Positions 7,662 through 39,022 of a stretch of 39,921 nt of DNA are shown here, one piece after another. Numbering within the stretch: the stretch's first letter is position 1; each line of letters begins with the position of its first letter. Source of the DNA: an uncultured Methanobrevibacter sp. (GTDB taxonomy: Archaea > Methanobacteriota > Methanobacteria > Methanobacteriales > Methanobacteriaceae); contig NZ_CAJOKH010000024.1 in the NCBI RefSeq assembly GCF_905235195.1, positions 1 through 39,921 on the forward strand, read 5' to 3'. Below the pieces are notes generated by a model. The model saw only the letters and a program-made list of their open reading frames with translations, made no database searches and was not told the origin of the DNA. Both the position numbers and the translations under genes were made by a program.

Positions 7662-9259
7662 ATGATTTATCCCAATATTGAAGAAATAAAAGAAATAGTA
7701 AAAGAGGATGATTACAAAAGAATTCCTATTTGCTATGAAATATATTCAGACACTAAGACTCCAATAGAAGTATTAAGAAGAATTAAAATATTAAGTAACC
7801 ATTGTTATATACTTGAAAGTGTTGAAGATTCAAAAAATTGGGGTAGATACAGTTTTTTAGGATTTGATCCTATACTTGAGCTAAGTTGTCAAGACAATAA
7901 ATTAAAAATTAAAGGAAAAAGTAGTTTTACAGATAAAAAAGATTCATTTAATATTAATACAGACGAACCTGGAAAATATATAAGGCAAATTATAAAGGAA
8001 AATAAAAGTCCTAAACTTAAAAATTTACCTCCATTTTCAGGAGGACTTGTAGGATATTTTGCTTATGAATATATAAAATATTCAGAAAAGTCCATTGTTT
8101 TAGATGGAAAAAATGATGACTCATTTAAAGATGTAGATTTAATGCTTTTTGATAAGGTTATTGTTTTTGATAATTTTAAACAAAAAATAATTATAATTGT
8201 CAATATGGAAATTAAAGATGATTTAGTAAAGGAATATGAAAAAACATCAAATCAAATAAAGAATATAGTAAAGGTCATTAAAAACTACAATATTATTGAT
8301 TTACTAAAAGAAATTAGTAAAGAAAATATAACAAATAAAAAAACCTTAGAAATATTGAAGAAAATAAAATTAAAGACAATGAAGAATTAATAAATAAAAT
8401 TGATTTAGGTTTTAAAATTAAATCTGATTTTAAGTATTTGTTTTCAAAAGAAGAATATTGTAGTCTTGTTGAGAGGGCTAAAAATTATATTTATGAAGGA
8501 GATATTTTTCAGGTTGTATTATCTAATTTAATAGAAACTAAAATGGAAGGCAGCCTATTTGATGTGTATAGGGTTCTTAGAACAACTAATCCTTCACCAT
8601 ACATGTTCTATTTTTCAAGCGATAATATTGAAATTGCGGGGGCATCTCCTGAGACCCTTGTAAAATTAGTGGACAATAAAATTTACACATTTCCACTTGC
8701 AGGCACCCGTCCAAGAGGAAAAACAAATAAAGAAGACTTATCCCTTGAGAAGGAATTATTATCTGATGAAAAAGAACTTGCAGAACATAATATGCTTGTT
8801 GATTTAGGAAGAAATGATATAGGTAAAATAAGTAAAATTGGTTCTGTCAAATTAAGTAAATATATGAATATTGTAAGATTCTCTCATGTGATGCATATCG
8901 GATCAACTATTGAAGCTGAAATAAGAGATGATTATGATTATTTATCTGCAATTGATTCTATTTTACCTGCTGGAACATTATCTGGAGCACCAAAAATAAG
9001 AGCATGTTCCATTATTAATGAATTAGAAAAAAATAAAAGAGGCATCTACGGCGGAGCAATAGGTTATATAGATTTAACAGGTAATTTAGACACCTGTATA
9101 ACAATTCGAGTAGCTTATGCAAAGAATAATAAGGTATTTATCAGATCTGGTGCAGGTATTGTAGCAGATAGTATTGGAGAAAATGAGTACAATGAATGTT
9201 TAAACAAAGCACAAGCTGTTATAGATGCTTTAAAGATAGCCAATAAAGGAATAAACTAA
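7662..9259 (+). pseudogene. trpE: Anthranilate synthase component I, split by a one-base frameshift
   Basis: Makes anthranilate from chorismate with TrpG. The gene reads as two pieces: 7662-8390 (N-terminal domain, with the feedback-site region CYILESVEDSKNWGRYSFLG) and 8438-9259 (catalytic domain, with IAGASPETLVKL, RPRGKT, LVDLGRNDIG, GTLSGAPKIRA and GGAIGYIDLTG). The second piece has only a TTG with no ribosome binding site, and its frame is open back through the break, so both belong to one gene. Adding one A to the A7 run at 8337-8343 restores a single 532-residue protein of normal architecture. GAGGT precedes the ATG at 7662. True mutation, homopolymer sequencing error, or polymerase slippage are all possible; all catalytic motifs remain, so the gene may be functional. 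Confidence 0.85.
8337..8343 (+). other. A7 run at the trpE frame break
   Basis: The run A7 followed by CC is the only place in the overlap of the two reading frames where a simple homopolymer change joins them. The first frame reads Asn-Lys-Lys-Thr-Leu-Glu here; the second frame reads on as Asn-Leu-Arg-Asn-Ile-Glu and continues into the catalytic domain. One base is missing relative to a continuous frame. Confidence 0.7.
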
Positions 9260-18456: not shown

Positions 18457-19689
18457 ATGACAATTATAATAGACCCTCAAAATTCAGGAATATCAGGAAA
18501 TATGTTTATAGGTGCACTGGTTGATTTAGGAGCAGATAAAGATAAAATAATAGAAATTACCGAAAAAGTTTCAAAAGCCTTTGGAGGAGTTAAAACTACA
18601 ATTGAAAAAGTAAATAAATCAGGAATAGACTCCCATTATTGTAATATAATAATATTAGATAAAGAAAATCCTAATAATCAATCTATAGGATATTGCGAAT
18701 TAATTGAAATAATTGATAACTTATACAATATTGTAGCGGCTGAAGTTATTGAAAAATCCAAGGAAGTTTTCTATGAAATAGCTAAAGCAGAATCTAAAGT
18801 CCATGGGAAAAGTATTAACAAGATTCATTTTCATGAAGTTGGTGCAGCAGATGCTGTATGTGATGTAATCGGAACTATTTATGGATTATACTTACTTAAT
18901 GCTCTTGATGAAGATATAATAGGACTTCCAATATCTGTAGGTGGTGGAAGGGTTGAAACTGCCCATGGTATTGTAAGTATACCTGCACCTGCAACACTGG
19001 AGATTTTAAAAGGGTTAAAATTTAGAGGCGGACCTGTAAACTTTGAACTTGCAACTCCTACAGGATGTGCATTATATAAAGTATTATGTTGTGAATATTT
19101 AGAGTTCTTACCAACTATAGATATAATAAATACAGGTTACGGAGCAGGTAGTAAAGATTTTAATCATCCAAATATATTGCGAATTTTAAAAGCTAAGGAT
19201 TTGGATATATTAAAAAATGCTAAAAGTACTGTAAATGTACTTGAAACAAATGTTGACCATTTAACCGGTGAAGAATTAGGTTATCTTTATGAAAAATTAC
19301 TTGACGGCGGTGCAAGAGACGTAACAATGATTCCAATCTTTATGAAGAAAAACAGACCCGGACATTTAATACAAGTAATCTGTAAAGATGAAAATATTGA
19401 AAGTTTACTTAAAATATTATTTAAAGATACACAGACACTAGGTATTAGAATTTCCCCAAAAACACATAGAGGAACAGCTAAAAGAGAATTTGTAAAATTA
19501 CCTCTAATCATCGAAGATGAGAAATTTGAAGTCACCTTTAAAATAGGATATTATAATAATAAAATAATCTCTAAAAGGGCAGAATTTGACGATAAAAAAA
19601 ATATAGCAAACCGTACTGGTTTAAGTATTAAGGAAGTAGACGAATTATGTAATATAACTATTAGAGACTATCTGTTAGATAATAATTAA
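18457..19689 (+). CDS. larC: LarC-type nickel insertion protein (DUF111 family)
   Basis: LarC uses CTP to insert nickel into the pyridinium dithiocarboxylate pincer cofactor first found in lactate racemase. The 410-residue product has the N-terminal ISGNMFIGALVDLGAD, the metal-site segment KIHFHEVGAADAVCD, SVGGGRVETAHGIVSIPAPA, FELATPTGCALYKVL, and the C-terminal domain VLETNVDHLTGEELGYLYEK with MKKNRPGHLIQVIC. In lactobacilli the protein is split by a programmed frameshift; here it is one open frame. AGGT precedes the ATG at 18457. No larA, larB or larE is in the window, so the target enzyme is unknown. It is 12 bases upstream of queC and may be co-transcribed. Confidence 0.9.
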   Translation: MTIIIDPQNSGISGNMFIGALVDLGADKDKIIEITEKVSKAFGGVKTTIEKVNKSGIDSHYCNIIILDKENPNNQSIGYCELIEIIDNLYNIVAAEVIEKSKEVFYEIAKAESKVHGKSINKIHFHEVGAADAVCDVIGTIYGLYLLNALDEDIIGLPISVGGGRVETAHGIVSIPAPATLEILKGLKFRGGPVNFELATPTGCALYKVLCCEYLEFLPTIDIINTGYGAGSKDFNHPNILRILKAKDLDILKNAKSTVNVLETNVDHLTGEELGYLYEKLLDGGARDVTMIPIFMKKNRPGHLIQVICKDENIESLLKILFKDTQTLGIRISPKTHRGTAKREFVKLPLIIEDEKFEVTFKIGYYNNKIISKRAEFDDKKNIANRTGLSIKEVDELCNITIRDYLLDNN

Positions 19690-19701
19690 AAATGTGATAA
19701 A

Positions 19702-20385
19702 ATGAAAGAAAAAGCTATAGCAATTTTATCTGGAGGCCTAGACAGTGGAGTGGCAATGTCTTCATATGTTGAAAACTATGAGATTTATGCAATTACATTT
19801 GATTATGGGCAAAAAGCAATTGAAGCTGAAATAAAGGCATCTAAAGCATTATGTGATCATTATGGTATTTTTCACAATGTAATTGACTTAAAATGGTTAG
19901 GAAAAATTAGTAATTCAGCACTTAACAGTTCAAAAGATATTCCTAAACCTACAGAAAATAATCTAGATAATCTTGATAAATCTAAAGAAAGTGCAAATGC
20001 TGTTTGGGTTCCAGGACGGAATACTGTTTTTACTGCAATAGGATGTTCATTTGCCGAAAGTATTGGTGCCAGTAAAATCATTGTTGGTTGGGATTTAGAA
20101 GAAGCAAATACATTCCCCGACAATTCCAAAGAATTTTTAGAATCCTTTAATGAACTTATAAAAATAGGCTCACCAGATAATATTGAAGTTGTTGCACCAT
20201 TAATTGATCTAAATAAAGATGAAATTGTAAAACTAGGAAAGTCCAATAATTGTCCGATGGAGCTAACTTATTCTTGTTATGAAGGTGGAGAGATTCACTG
20301 TGGTACGTGTGAATCTTGTATGAGACGTAAAAGAGGATTTAAAAAAGGAGGAATAAGGGATTTAACAGAATATAAAAGTGATTAA
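19702..20385 (+). CDS. queC: 7-cyano-7-deazaguanine (preQ0) synthase
   Basis: ATP-dependent enzyme converting 7-carboxy-7-deazaguanine and ammonia to preQ0, used in archaea for archaeosine at position 15 of tRNA. The 227-residue protein has the PP-loop ILSGGLDSGVAMS, FDYGQKAIEAE, VPGRNTVFTAIG, and the C-terminal zinc site with cysteines in SCYEGGEIHCGTCESCMRRK. Spaced 12 bases after larC and directly followed by the first zinc-ribbon gene, whose ATG touches the queC stop. QueD/QueE are not in the window. Start is the ATG at 19702, with only a weak GTGAT upstream. Confidence 0.95.
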   Translation: MKEKAIAILSGGLDSGVAMSSYVENYEIYAITFDYGQKAIEAEIKASKALCDHYGIFHNVIDLKWLGKISNSALNSSKDIPKPTENNLDNLDKSKESANAVWVPGRNTVFTAIGCSFAESIGASKIIVGWDLEEANTFPDNSKEFLESFNELIKIGSPDNIEVVAPLIDLNKDEIVKLGKSNNCPMELTYSCYEGGEIHCGTCESCMRRKRGFKKGGIRDLTEYKSD

Positions 20386-20883
20386 ATGGTAGTTGTAGAT
20401 ACATTCATCTGCAGTGACTGCGGATATAAATATACCAACAAAGCAGAAATTTTCTATTTTAATGAAGATTTTAAGGAACTTGAAGTTACACTTAAACTTA
20501 CACTAACTCTTAGAAACCTATCTAAATCACCATTATACGGTTCTGCTCATGAAAAATATTGCCCAAAGTGTAATGAATTTATTAGAACTTATAATATTTA
20601 TAAAAATACTAATAAAAAAAATCTAAGTAGAGAAGAGATAAACAGCAAAATTAATCAATTGTCAAAAACCAGGATAAATATTGTAAATATTAAAAGTACG
20701 AGCAACAACAATGGTGAGAAAAAACCTAGTGTAAGCTCTTATATGAAAGTTAAAAAAGAAGATGAATATTGTCCTATATGTGGTGAAAAAATATATGCTG
20801 TTTATAATGATATGGAATGTCCAAAATGCATGAAAGGTAAATTAAATATTCAATGCAGAGTATGTAAAATAGATAGACGATAA
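20386..20883 (+). CDS. Multi-zinc-ribbon protein 1 of 3
   Basis: A 165-residue protein of unknown function with five Cys-x2-Cys pairs: C9/C12, C59/C62, C129/C132, C145/C148 and C157/C160. N-terminal FICSDCGYKY and EIFYFNEDF are followed by SKSPLYGSAHEKYCPKCNEF, a short alpha/beta segment (SREEINSKINQL), and a C-terminal ribbon EYCPICGEKI with ECPKCMKGK. The ATG immediately follows the queC stop with no visible ribosome binding site, so translation is probably coupled to queC. It is a clear relative of the next two proteins. Likely a metal-binding structural or nucleic-acid/protein adaptor; I infer no specific role. Confidence 0.75.
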   Translation: MVVVDTFICSDCGYKYTNKAEIFYFNEDFKELEVTLKLTLTLRNLSKSPLYGSAHEKYCPKCNEFIRTYNIYKNTNKKNLSREEINSKINQLSKTRINIVNIKSTSNNNGEKKPSVSSYMKVKKEDEYCPICGEKIYAVYNDMECPKCMKGKLNIQCRVCKIDRR

Positions 20884-20884
20884 T

Positions 20885-21322
20885 ATGGCACTAACTGAAA
20901 AATATAAATGTAATAACTGTGGATTTGAATATGAAACAAAAGATGACATATTTTATTTTAACCGATACCTAACTGAAATAATAGAAGAGCCTGTAAATAA
21001 AAAGTCATTTGATGAGGCAGGTAAATCACCAATATCTGGAAGAATAGATGAAGGATATTGTAGAAAATGTAAAAAATTTGTAAAAATTTATCTAATATCA
21101 AATAATGATAATTATACCTCCCTAAAAAATGAAGAAATAAGAGAAAAAATAGTAGAACTTAATGGTGATAAAAATATAAGAGTTTATTTCTTCCAAAATG
21201 AACGCAACCGCAAAAATAATGGAGATTTATGTGGAAAATGTGAAAAAGTACTTGAATGGTTATATCCAGAAAGTCTTTGTCCAGAATGTGGTGAAGGCAA
21301 ATTAATGCTTAAAAAACATTGA
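20885..21322 (+). CDS. Multi-zinc-ribbon protein 2 of 3
   Basis: 145 residues, function unknown. Four Cys-x2-Cys pairs at C9/C12, C59/C62, C116/C119 and C132/C135; the first two are at exactly the same positions as in the preceding protein. Shared blocks: YKCNNCGFEYETKDDIFYFN, GKSPISGRIDEGYCRKCKKF, NEEIREKIVEL, then LCGKCEKVLEW and LCPECGEGKL. The third pair is C-G-K-C rather than C-P-x-C. One base separates it from the stop of protein 1, so the two form a translationally coupled pair. Soluble, no signal peptide or membrane segment. Confidence 0.75.
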   Translation: MALTEKYKCNNCGFEYETKDDIFYFNRYLTEIIEEPVNKKSFDEAGKSPISGRIDEGYCRKCKKFVKIYLISNNDNYTSLKNEEIREKIVELNGDKNIRVYFFQNERNRKNNGDLCGKCEKVLEWLYPESLCPECGEGKLMLKKH

Positions 21323-21403
21323 AGACAAAAAAGAGAAGTCTGATAAAATTAAATTACAATAAAATATAAAAATATTGTATAAACTAAGTAAAAAGGTGAA
21401 ATA

Positions 21404-21871
21404 ATGGGTTTTGCTAAAGAAAGAATATGTCAAAAATGCGGATTTAAATTTAGTGAGCTAGACGAGATTAGTTTCTATCTTAATGATGATTTAACAATAT
21501 TAACTGAAGAAGAAGCAAGAGGAGCTTTAGGTTATGAAGTTTTAGATAAAGTTAATAAATCACTTATTTCAGGAAAATTAGAAGAATTTTACTGCAGAGA
21601 ATGTGATGAAATTGTAAATTTTTATATCGTATGTAAAAATGATTCCAGATTATCTGAAGATGAATTAAGTGAATTAATAAAGGACTTATCTGAATATAAA
21701 ATTACTGAAGTAATCTTTGAGATTGGAAGAGATTTAATATTTGCACATACAAATATTGAAGATGAAATATGTCCTAAATGTAATAATAAAATTTATGGTT
21801 ACTTTGAAATGGATGTATGTCCTAAATGTGGAGATGAACAGTTTATAGAATTTTATCAACTTTATGAATAA
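21404..21871 (+). CDS. Multi-zinc-ribbon protein 3 of 3
   Basis: 155 residues, third member of the local family. Cys pairs at C9/C12, C64/C67, C123/C126 and C139/C142. Blocks correspond to the other two: RICQKCGFKFSELDEISFYL, NKSLISGKLEEFYCRECDEI, SEDELSELIKDL, EICPKCNNKIYGYFEMDVCP. It carries an extra roughly five residues before the second pair. It is separated by 81 bases from protein 2 and has its own good AAGGTGA site before the ATG at 21404, so it may be translated independently. Function unknown. Confidence 0.75.
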   Translation: MGFAKERICQKCGFKFSELDEISFYLNDDLTILTEEEARGALGYEVLDKVNKSLISGKLEEFYCRECDEIVNFYIVCKNDSRLSEDELSELIKDLSEYKITEVIFEIGRDLIFAHTNIEDEICPKCNNKIYGYFEMDVCPKCGDEQFIEFYQLYE

Positions 21872-21906
21872 AATAATATACAAATTAAATTAATTAAAAT
21901 TGAAAT

Positions 21907-22093
21907 AAGAAAATAATTAAAATTTAAAATAAGAAAATAATTAAAATTTAAAATAAGAAAATAATTAAAATTTAAAATAAGAAAATAATTAAAATTTAAA
22001 AAAAATAATTAAAATTTAAAATAAGAAAATAATTAAAATTGAAATAAGAAAATAATTAAAATTTAAAATAAGAAAATAATTAAAATTTAAAAT
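21907..22093. repeat. 24-bp tandem repeat, about eight copies
   Basis: Units begin with AAGAAAATAATTAAAATT at 21907, 21931, 21955, 21979, 22023, 22046 and 22070, with one shortened unit near 22003. The common period is 24; one unit is 23 because TTTAAAAT is replaced by TTGAAAT. The array fills the spacer between the convergent zinc-ribbon 3 gene and pycB and fades into related A/T sequence to about 22140. It is not CRISPR: there are no unique spacers. An A8 run at 22175-22182 (T8 on the minus strand) may end the pycB transcript. Confidence 0.8.
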
Positions 22094-22220
22094 TAAAATT
22101 AATTAAAATAAAATTTAAAATTAATTAAAAATTAAAAAAATAATTAATTAAGAGTAAAGGAATATAAAACTTTTAAAAAAAAGAGAATTAATGAATAAAA
22201 AAAGAAAAAATTATAGTCAT

Positions 22221-23930
22221 CTATTCGATGACCATTATTGTATCACCAGCTGAGACAGAATCTCCTTTTTCAACTAATATTTGTGTAACAACACCATCTT
22301 TTTCAGCTTGAATATCATTTTCCATTTTCATAGCTTCAAGTACTGCTACTGTTGAACCTTTAGCAACTTTGTCTCCAACTTCCACTTTAATATTTAAAAC
22401 CATACCTTGCATTGATGATGTAACAGCACCTTCAACAGGAGTAAATGGTCCTTTATCTGTTTCTTCAACCTGAAGATAACCAGTTGGAATAATTTTAACA
22501 TCAAAGACATCTCCATCAACTTCAACATTATATTGTGTTGGAATAGCTAATGGGTCATCTGAGACAGGAGTCTTAGGTTTAAGTTCTTCCTCTTCTGCTT
22601 CACCTTTTAAGAATTTTTCAGCAACTTGAGGATATAAAGCAAGAGTTAAAACATCTTCCTCTTTTTTAATAATTCCTAAATCATTACCTATTTTTTCATA
22701 TTTTTCCATTTCATCTTCAAGTAAGTCTGCAGGCCTACACTCAATAGGTTCTTCATCACCTAAGATTTTTTTATAGACCTTAGGATTTACATCTGCAGGA
22801 GGACGTCCATACATTCCCCTCATATATTCTTTGACCTCATTAGACACAGTTTTATATCTTTCTCCACCAAGAACATTCATTACAGATTGAATACCTACAA
22901 TTTGACTAGTTGGAGTAACAAGTGGAGGATAACCCATATCTTCCCTTGTTCTAGGCATTTCTTCTAAAACATCTTGATATCTGTCAAGTGCATTTTGTTC
23001 TTTAAGTTGAGAAACAAGGTTTGATAACATTCCACCAGGAATTTGATATAATAATACATCAGTATCAATTTGTTCTGCAATAGGATCAAGAATAGAACCA
23101 TATTCCTCCCTAATATCATTAAAGTAATCTTTAACTGAATTTAATAATTTTAAATCTAAACCTGTATCAAATTTAGTACCTTGAAGTGCTGCAACAACAC
23201 TTTCAGTAGGAGGTTGACTTGTACCTCCTGCAACTGGAGAAATTGCAGTATCTAAAATATCTACACCTGCTTCACAAGCAGCATAATATGTAATTGGAGC
23301 CATTCCACTAGTACAGTGACAATGTAAATCTACAAGCAAATCAGTTTCTTCTTTAAGTCTTGAAATTAACTCATATGCAGCGTGAGGAGTAATAAGACCA
23401 GCCATGTCTTTAATACAAATAGAATCACAATCTAATTCTTCAAGTTTTTTAGCAAAATCTACATATGAATCAATAGTGTGTACTGGAGAAATAGTATAAC
23501 TAATAGTACCTTGTACATGAGCACCTTGAGCTTTTGCAACTTTAATAGATTGCTCCATATTACGTATATCATTTAATGCATCAAATATTCTAAATACATC
23601 TACACCATTTTCATAGGATTTTTCTACAAAAGCAGTTACAACATCATCAGGATAATTTTTATAACCTAAAAGATTTTGCCCCCTTAAAAGCATTTGAATA
23701 GGAGTTCTAGTAGCTTTCTCTTTAATCTCCCTTAATCTTTCCCAAGGATCTTCATTTAAATAACGAATACATGTATCGAAAGTAGCTCCTCCCCAAGCTT
23801 CCAGTGAAAAGTATCCTATCTCATCTAACTCTTCAATAACAGGAATCATATCTCGTGTTCTCATACGAGTAGCCAAAAGGGACTGGTGAGCATCTCTAAG
23901 AGCAGTTTCAGTAATTTTGGTATTTTTCAT
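22221..23930 (-). CDS. pycB: Pyruvate carboxylase subunit B (carboxyltransferase plus biotin carrier)
   Basis: Carries carboxyl transfer from biotin to pyruvate, giving oxaloacetate, the entry to the methanogen reductive TCA branch. 569 residues: HMGL-like TIM barrel (about 1-290) with ETALRDAHQSLLATRMRT and the metal-site stretch LLVDLHCHCTSGM; the conserved PYC/OADA domain (about 300-450); an acidic linker; and a biotinyl domain (about 500-569) with the biotin lysine, about K535, in EAMKMEND. The oxaloacetate decarboxylase alpha subunit is homologous, but no sodium-pump subunits are near. GGTGATT lies just before the ATG at 23930. pycA, the biotin carboxylase, is not in the window. Confidence 0.93.
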   Translation of the reverse strand: MKNTKITETALRDAHQSLLATRMRTRDMIPVIEELDEIGYFSLEAWGGATFDTCIRYLNEDPWERLREIKEKATRTPIQMLLRGQNLLGYKNYPDDVVTAFVEKSYENGVDVFRIFDALNDIRNMEQSIKVAKAQGAHVQGTISYTISPVHTIDSYVDFAKKLEELDCDSICIKDMAGLITPHAAYELISRLKEETDLLVDLHCHCTSGMAPITYYAACEAGVDILDTAISPVAGGTSQPPTESVVAALQGTKFDTGLDLKLLNSVKDYFNDIREEYGSILDPIAEQIDTDVLLYQIPGGMLSNLVSQLKEQNALDRYQDVLEEMPRTREDMGYPPLVTPTSQIVGIQSVMNVLGGERYKTVSNEVKEYMRGMYGRPPADVNPKVYKKILGDEEPIECRPADLLEDEMEKYEKIGNDLGIIKKEEDVLTLALYPQVAEKFLKGEAEEEELKPKTPVSDDPLAIPTQYNVEVDGDVFDVKIIPTGYLQVEETDKGPFTPVEGAVTSSMQGMVLNIKVEVGDKVAKGSTVAVLEAMKMENDIQAEKDGVVTQILVEKGDSVSAGDTIMVIE

Positions 23931-36923: not shown

Positions 36924-39022
36924 ATGAAAATTGTAGTCTGTAAACATTGTGGAGCTAATTTCCAAATAGAAGATGATGAGGATATTAATACCTATGAGTG
37001 TACTGTTTGTGCAGGGGATTTAGAATATGATAAAAATTATTCTACCTTACCTTCAAATGGAGGAACACAAAGATTCAATACAGACATACTTACTAAAAGC
37101 TACAATATGGTTCAATGTAAAAGTTGTGGACTTAGATTCAGATTAGATAAAACTGACAATATTCTAGATTATGAATGTTCTAGTTGTGGAGGACAATTAA
37201 AGTTTTTAGAGGAAGATTTAAACGAAGATATAGAAGGAATTCATCAGAATCAAAAAACTTTTGAAGAAGAATTTGTAAAAAATGCAAAACAAGATGATAC
37301 TGCATATTCCAATCCCCCTCTAGATGACGGTTATATCTATGTCGAACATGAAGATAAACAAGAAGACATTGAAGTAGTCTATACAGATGACCCTAATTAT
37401 ACTGGAGAAAATATTAATACCACAAATAATAATCCAAATAATGAGATTAAAGACTATATTGGACCTAGTAAAGCTATAAATGATAAGAAAAAAATCATTG
37501 AAGAAAATGATTTTGAAAATAATGAGAATAATAATATTTATCCAAATACAGATGAAGATTTAATTGGTAATGTCGAATATCAAAGCGAATTTAAAGTTCC
37601 AGATAATTTAGACTATAATGAACTTAAAAAATATATTCTCCTTTCATTTGCTGAAAATATGGACCATAGATATAATAAATATGAAAAAAATTTAAAAAAA
37701 AAACTCAAAATTTAGAAAATGATAATTTAAGATACAAAACCCAATATGGAAAAAATTCTTCAAGTAAATATAATTATAAGCCAAATTTAAATAATAAAAA
37801 CCAGATACCTACTTATTTTAACAATTCTAATAATGATGCAATAGATAATAATTCATTAGACGAAAATAGAAAAAAATATTTGGAGCTGAAAAAACTTAAA
37901 TCAGATTTAGATAATAAAAATAGAAAATCTAAATCAACTATAAATAGATTAAAAGGAGTTTTTTCAAAAAATAATTCTCGTTTTGATGAAATAAAAAATT
38001 CTCAATCAAGTGCTTCTAATACCACTAATCAAATAAATACTGATCATTCTATTGACAATACTACTCAAAAGAAAGATTATGAAAGTAAACTAAAAGATTA
38101 TGAAAAGGAAATAAATGATACATATACCTATAATCCTAACAAAGACACTGTACCTTATATTTACAATCCTGAAAAAGAAGAAGCATTAATATATTCAAGT
38201 GAAATTTTAAATCCTAACACTACCTTAGAAGATTTAGACAATATTAAAAAACAAAATCTTGTACCCAATCCAAATGAAAGTAATGAACCATTTGTCTATC
38301 TTTATATTGGAAGCGGTAGCCTTGTAATGATACTTGGTTTATTTGATACCGTTTATTCAAATAGAATATATAGTTTAGTTTTTGTACTTATTGGAACAGT
38401 AGTTCTTGCAATAGGTATTTATAAAAATAAAAATTTTGATGAAAAAGAAAAACGTGGGCGAATTATACGTTCTAAATTACTTACACTTCCAGAAAACTTT
38501 TATGTTCTATATTATGTAAGAGTTCCAGAATCAAATGAAGGAATTAACCATGTAGTTATTGGACCAACGGGAATTTACACAATATTGTCACAAAAATTTG
38601 ATGCAAAAGAAGATAAAAACAGAATCAAACAAGAAAATGAAACCCAAGAATTAATTTCCCTCCTCGGTGATGAAAGTAAGGAAAGATTAATCCCAGATGA
38701 TAATCCTATTACTGCTAAATTTATAAATCCCGAACATAAATTTAAATTTGAACATAATAACCGAATTAAACAAAAAGTTCTTAAATTATCTTATGAGTTA
38801 GAAGATTTTTTAAAAGAAAATGATTTAGAATGTCCTGTTCAACCTTATGTAGGCTTTGTAAATCAGGAAGTTGCAGTATTAAATAATCCTTTAAGAGATG
38901 AAGATTATTTTATTGATGAATTATTAAATAAAATCATTTACTCTAAACAAAGAGTTAGTTTAAATACGGTTCATAAATGTGCTATACTTTTAACTCAATA
39001 CTCAACTAGATGTTCTAATTAG
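36924..39022 (+). pseudogene. Two zinc ribbons plus membrane-anchored NERD-like protein, frame broken once
   Basis: Reads as two pieces, 36924-37715 and 37880-39022; the second has only TTG and no ribosome binding site, and its frame is open back to the A10 run at 37694-37703. Adding one A there gives one 699-residue protein. Order: two zinc ribbons (C6/C9-C26/C29, C65/C68-C85/C88), a long Asn/Asp/Glu-rich linker, a second Asn/Lys-rich linker, two membrane segments (about residues 138-156 and 163-181 of the second piece), then a NERD-like domain (about 197-345) with INHVVIGPTGIYTI. NERD is a predicted nuclease-related fold; activity is not shown. The break may be sequencing error, mutation, or slippage. 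I recognise no named family for the whole. Confidence 0.7.
37694..37703 (+). other. A10 run at the frame break of the zinc-ribbon/NERD gene
   Basis: In the first frame the run is read Lys-Lys-Lys then Leu-Lys-Ile-stop at 37713. In the second frame the following codons give TQNLENDNLRYKTQYGKN and continue uninterrupted to the membrane segments. As in trpE, one base is missing relative to a continuous frame. Confidence 0.7.

Follow-up and report, generated by a model that had tools for sequence, protein, structure and literature searches.

Small zinc-ribbon proteins of unassigned role are a familiar class in archaea. The CPxCG-related small zinc finger proteins, which comprise Brz and the mu-proteins of Haloferax, remain largely uncharacterised and carry one ribbon each, in proteins of under 100 aa for the Brz class and under 70 aa for the mu-proteins (PMC2253796, PMC6562870). 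Brz of Halobacterium was shown to regulate the neighbouring bop gene (PMC2253796). Here we analyse three consecutive genes located behind queC in a stretch of 39,921 nucleotides from an uncultured Methanobrevibacter (contig NZ_CAJOKH010000024.1; the whole stretch is called the window below), which belong to a family that the libraries and papers searched appear to leave without a name.

The original prediction described three related genes of 165, 145 and 155 codons with four or five CxxC pairs per protein, the first pair being C9/C12 in all of them, and direct reading confirmed the lengths, the exact coordinates (Table 1) and these pairs. They stand at residues 9/12, 59/62, 129/132, 145/148 and 157/160 in gene 1, at 9/12, 59/62, 116/119 and 132/135 in gene 2 and at 9/12, 64/67, 123/126 and 139/142 in gene 3, against a mean of 0.4-0.5 pairs in shuffled sequences. 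The second pair had been placed at C59/C62 in two proteins only, which is correct for genes 1 and 2; in gene 3, a five-residue insertion shifts the equivalent pair to C64/C67 and both N-terminal pairs are therefore present in all three proteins. The relationship is well above chance, since gene 3 used as a query retrieves gene 2 with an E value of 1.8e-15 and gene 1 with 4.6e-12. The three proteins align over their full length with about 31% identity and eight cysteines in common, in the layout C9/C12, C59/C62, C129/C132, C145/C148 (gene 1 numbering), which points to two probable C4 zinc sites. Judging from these invariant pairs, the products are probably zinc binders. The tight coupling announced for queC, gene 1 and gene 2 was also found: the ATG of gene 1 directly follows the TAA stop of queC (20383-20385), with a gap of 0, and a single base separates genes 1 and 2. 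Gene 3 begins 81 bases behind gene 2 and, as expected, has a ribosome-binding site of its own, AAGGTGA.

Table 1. Features of the window around the three zinc-ribbon genes
Feature	Coordinates	Strand	Details
larC (nickel pincer cofactor biosynthesis)	18457..19689	+	NCBIfam TIGR00299 E 5.3e-50; Pfam Ni_insertion 1e-116
queC (7-cyano-7-deazaguanine synthase)	19702..20385	+	TIGR00364 214.8 bits vs cut-off 150.3
Zinc-ribbon gene 1	20386..20883	+	165 aa, ATG start, five CxxC pairs
Zinc-ribbon gene 2	20885..21322	+	145 aa, ATG start, four CxxC pairs
Ribosome-binding site AAGGTGA + spacer before gene 3	21391..21403	+	sequence read directly
Zinc-ribbon gene 3	21404..21871	+	155 aa, ATG start, four CxxC pairs, own ribosome-binding site
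pycB-like (carboxyltransferase, C-terminal biotin-carrier-like domain)	22221..23930	-	named from sequence

Several other features of the window were recorded. Immediately after gene 3 and before the convergent pycB-like gene comes an AT-rich tandem array (21887-22151) made of 11.5 copies of a 24-base unit with 88% matches. A separate protein of 263 aa (36924-37715) carries two N-terminal CxxC-type zinc ribbon repeats and is missed by the family profile. An apparent trpE is split into two ORFs, 7662-8390 (242 aa) and 8438-9259 (273 aa), ahead of trpG and other trp genes, which may reflect a frameshift, a disruption or an assembly error.

The family was presumed to have no curated description and, indeed, no Pfam or NCBIfam model scored above its cut-off for any of the three window proteins. 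In the literature searched, the family is nowhere described, and the word zinc is absent from the main text of the M. ruminantium genome paper. The profile search called for by the original prediction revealed members in 61 of 139 Methanobacteriaceae genomes and 4 of 17 genera. The window genome itself has a fourth copy outside the window, next to a MutS-like gene. The worry that the pattern might be limited to this genome was thus justified for the triplet, which occurs in the window genome only among the data searched, and unjustified for the family itself. When a more sensitive profile was run over a wider set of 152 genomes of the phylum, further weak matches appeared; many of them span about 43 codons, correspond to the C-terminal ribbon only and are probably other ribbon proteins. 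The family is restricted to Methanobrevibacter-like and Methanosphaera-like methanogens, which we take, from general knowledge of these genera, to be host-associated.

Of the 53 members that we examined, 36 are short forms of 138-210 aa and 17 are long forms of 225-252 aa. G52 and Cys pairs two to four never vary among the short forms, and the first pair is almost invariant; in L052, the called start lies downstream of it. The long form, of about 235 aa, is clearly homologous to the short one (E 7.8e-34 between the two alignments), and because long forms match the profile twice, their N-terminal module is repeated. Pairs of long forms 3-4 kb apart are conserved between two genomes (L070 4442-9180 and L073 4538-8999), and clustered copies therefore recur outside the window.

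The linkage to queC was followed through the four genomes of the window's genus. All four keep the larC-queC pair (larC orthologues adjoin queC in L066, L111 and L112), and two of them, the window genome and G002, have a family gene behind queC. In G002, this gene is an orthologue of gene 1 with 80% identity and the fifth pair C157/C160 retained; genes 2 and 3 do not follow it there, and the end of a convergent gene is reached after 63 bases. Unlike gene 1, genes 2 and 3 have no orthologue. In G001 and G003, no family gene is present behind queC, which is followed by a convergent nitroreductase gene and then by a pycB orthologue. Since its contents differ between the window genome, G002 and G001/G003, the slot between queC and pycB is variable, with the pycB-like gene as its convergent boundary. 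The gene found in this slot in G001 and G003 encodes a nitroreductase-ferredoxin; elsewhere, the window genome has only a partial match to it with stop codons read through, possibly a decayed copy (loci L111 2415-3221, L112 330-1127 and L120).

The original prediction proposed to look for the same triplet beside queC in other methanogens. Scanning contigs with the triplet returned three Methanobrevibacter loci and no others, and the full set of three stands in the window genome alone. Linkage to queC is thus not conserved across methanogens, being found in two of the four genomes of the genus, while members elsewhere follow other genes, and a recent tandem expansion tied to queC is not supported, for the same reasons. 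A partnership with QueC in preQ0/archaeosine synthesis would be in line with the 0-base gap to queC in two genomes; we consider it extremely improbable, because queC does without a family gene behind it in G001 and G003 and because the members everywhere else follow unrelated genes. Given the number of unrelated genes behind which members are found, the location of genes 1-3 after queC is probably incidental.

The phylogeny also bears on the origin of the triplet. Gene 1 groups with its G002 orthologue (support 99), whereas genes 2 and 3 are weakly joined as sisters (support 86) on long branches, which argues for an old divergence and not for a fresh triplication. A comparison of the window genome with G002 gave dN/dS values of 0.14 for gene 1, 0.24 for queC and 0.15 for larC, and values from 0.09 to 0.29 were obtained in the other family clades where synonymous sites are unsaturated. 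These low values, which cover gene 1 and the other clades, genes 2 and 3 having no orthologue, indicate purifying selection on gene 1, which, like the other family members tested, is maintained as a protein.

Elsewhere, the placement of copies differs from one genus to another. In genus g8, they stand between cofE and cofD or behind mtd (mtd/hisB), in genus g9 behind argD, and other copies are located behind uvrB, an acyltransferase gene or hsdS, or by lysS or a mutS-like gene. Some placements are stable within a clade, behind cofE in about 11 genomes and behind argD in more. For 20 representative locus types, one per placement, the upstream gene was on the same strand in 20/20 loci versus 65% of a background of 310 genes (Fisher p 0.0004), and the member was the last gene before a convergent neighbour in 11/20 versus 23% (p 0.003), figures that are indicative only since the choice of representatives was manual and the fourth copy of the window genome (L087) has its upstream gene on the opposite strand. 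Very tight spacing showed no enrichment over background (p 0.45).

By analogy with Brz and bop in Halobacterium, each copy could be a local regulator of its own operon. This is the strongest rival to the explanation that we favour below, and we still judge it unlikely. It would account for the spacing of 0-30 bases behind queC, argD, cofE, hsdS and others and for the clade-stable placement behind cofE, argD and mtd, and Brz offers a precedent for control of a neighbour (PMC2253796). However, brz lies upstream of its target and the copies lie downstream, the partner genes have no common function, and tight spacing as such is no more frequent than in the background.

About six locus types have restriction, GmrSD, DUF4062 or prophage genes in their vicinity, which suggested an accessory role in defence or counter-defence on islands and prophages. 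In L063, a member stands between hsdR and GmrSD genes; in L083 and L059, it follows hsdS and is accompanied by an integrase; in L062, a GmrSD gene precedes it; in L060, its neighbours are a terminase and a DUF4062 gene; and in L058, it is close to a helicase-HNH gene. This role seems very doubtful to us, since about three quarters of the locus types, the window included, have housekeeping or uninformative genes around them, the family has only weak and scattered matches in PADLOC, and the viral collections gave nothing convincing: phage records gave no match or chance integrase matches, and viral scans with single members yielded nothing beyond one match (L108). Matches in PHROGs were likewise weak and scattered. 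Reading the genes of L108 ruled this match out as a chance one, caused by a CPKC stretch in a bacterial-type phage. In L083 (1300-5505) and L059 (15806-19653), the member is part of a type I restriction locus that also contains a tyrosine integrase gene and hsdS genes or fragments of them, a layout that suggests an invertible specificity cassette.

The ribosome and RNA polymerase had been named as possible partners, and a general accessory of transcription or translation, docking on either through its C-terminal ribbon, has to be weighed. The C-terminal ribbon weakly resembles Rpo12/RPB12 and S27ae/eS31 (E 0.007-0.05), and gene 3 gives a weak match over residues 6-68 to the archaeal transcription factor S4 model (NF047723), against which the window proteins score 14.0, 16.0 and 22.9 bits (22.9 for gene 3) for a cut-off of 120. 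TFS proteins have two ribbons. All these similarities are far under the curated cut-offs and are common to most CPxC ribbons, so that such partners are not supported, and it is unlike a core function that the number of copies varies strongly and that many genomes have none; a role of this kind is accordingly a slim prospect. Most members are acidic (pI 4.4-5.6), yet the proteome median pI is 5.2 and 62% of background proteins are below 5.5, so that acidity was judged too weak an argument against binding to nucleic acids and was set aside.

The structure of the proteins was addressed by AlphaFold2 models of genes 1 and 2 built from six sequences, whose confidence is modest (best pLDDT of 73 for gene 1, in one of five models, and 64.5 for gene 2). 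The models of both proteins agree on a predicted strand-strand-helix-strand-strand-helix-strand core (residues ~20-102) after the first Cys pair, with the C-terminal ribbon region separate from it. Foldseek searches against the PDB and BFVD gave nothing with E under 0.4 and hence no known fold, a result compatible with a new fold as well as with a known one.

Taken together, these observations lead us to favour, with about an even chance of being right, the view that these double-zinc proteins make up an accessory family prone to duplication, that read-through from host operons drives their expression, and that they are probably protein-binding adaptors and not partners of the archaeosine pathway. 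The first and second CxxC pairs, about 50 residues apart, would together make one C4 zinc site, carried by a beta-rich fold. Behind this N-terminal domain would come a helix-strand linker, which varies between members, and then a classical C-terminal zinc ribbon (CPxC-x12-CPxC) as the second site. Copies would duplicate, change their place in the genome and end up immediately behind unrelated host genes; read-through expression is proposed because they lie downstream of these genes and are often the last ones before a convergent neighbour. In the window, gene 1 would thus be read after queC and gene 2 after gene 1, while gene 3 would use its own ribosome-binding site. Working in trans, the proteins would most likely be regulators or adaptors that bind other proteins, with no dedication to preQ0/archaeosine synthesis. 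The clade-stable cofE and argD placements could mean a local function and count against such a passenger status. A bolder proposal, that this family of gut methanogens spreads by inserting copies directly behind host genes and that each copy regulates or modulates the product of the preceding gene, with some branches recruited to restriction or other defence loci, appears to us improbable; if true, it would represent a new regulatory habit in methane-producing archaea.

What began as a curiosity behind queC is thus a defined, unannotated family with a clear domain layout and the unusual habit of placing its genes downstream of unrelated ones. It warns against assigning a role in tRNA modification from neighbourhood and offers a set of targets for structural and deletion work.

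Compared with curated families, the proteins resemble the CpXC protein (PF14353) in having an N-terminal CxxC and a second CxxC. Weak matches to this model occur in 9/36 short and 2/17 long forms, the window proteins are below its 25.4-bit cut-off (gene 3 reaches 15.5 bits at best), a genome search with PF14353 gave zero matches in genomes of the window's genus, and in a profile comparison with an archaeal CpXC protein the CPKC stretch alone was aligned. The C-terminal ribbon is like that of DZR (PF12773) and DZR_2 (PF18912), models that cover the ribbon alone and imply no function; for a DZR cut-off of 27.3 bits, gene 1 reaches 18.3 and gene 3 23.5, gene 2 being unlisted, and one long member (L067) exceeds it with 31.4. 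The likeness to the CPxCG class lies in the C-terminal part, where CPxC pairs are about 12 residues apart (PMC2253796, PMC6562870): C129/C132 and C145/C148, and their equivalents in genes 2 and 3, are two Cys pairs separated by 7-40 residues, at least one of them CPxCG-like, as in the Brz class. The window proteins, at 145-165 aa, exceed the limit of 100 residues set for that class, and the family as a whole differs from the CPxCG proteins in its length of 138-252 aa, in having a conserved N-terminal domain and in its two or three probable zinc sites.
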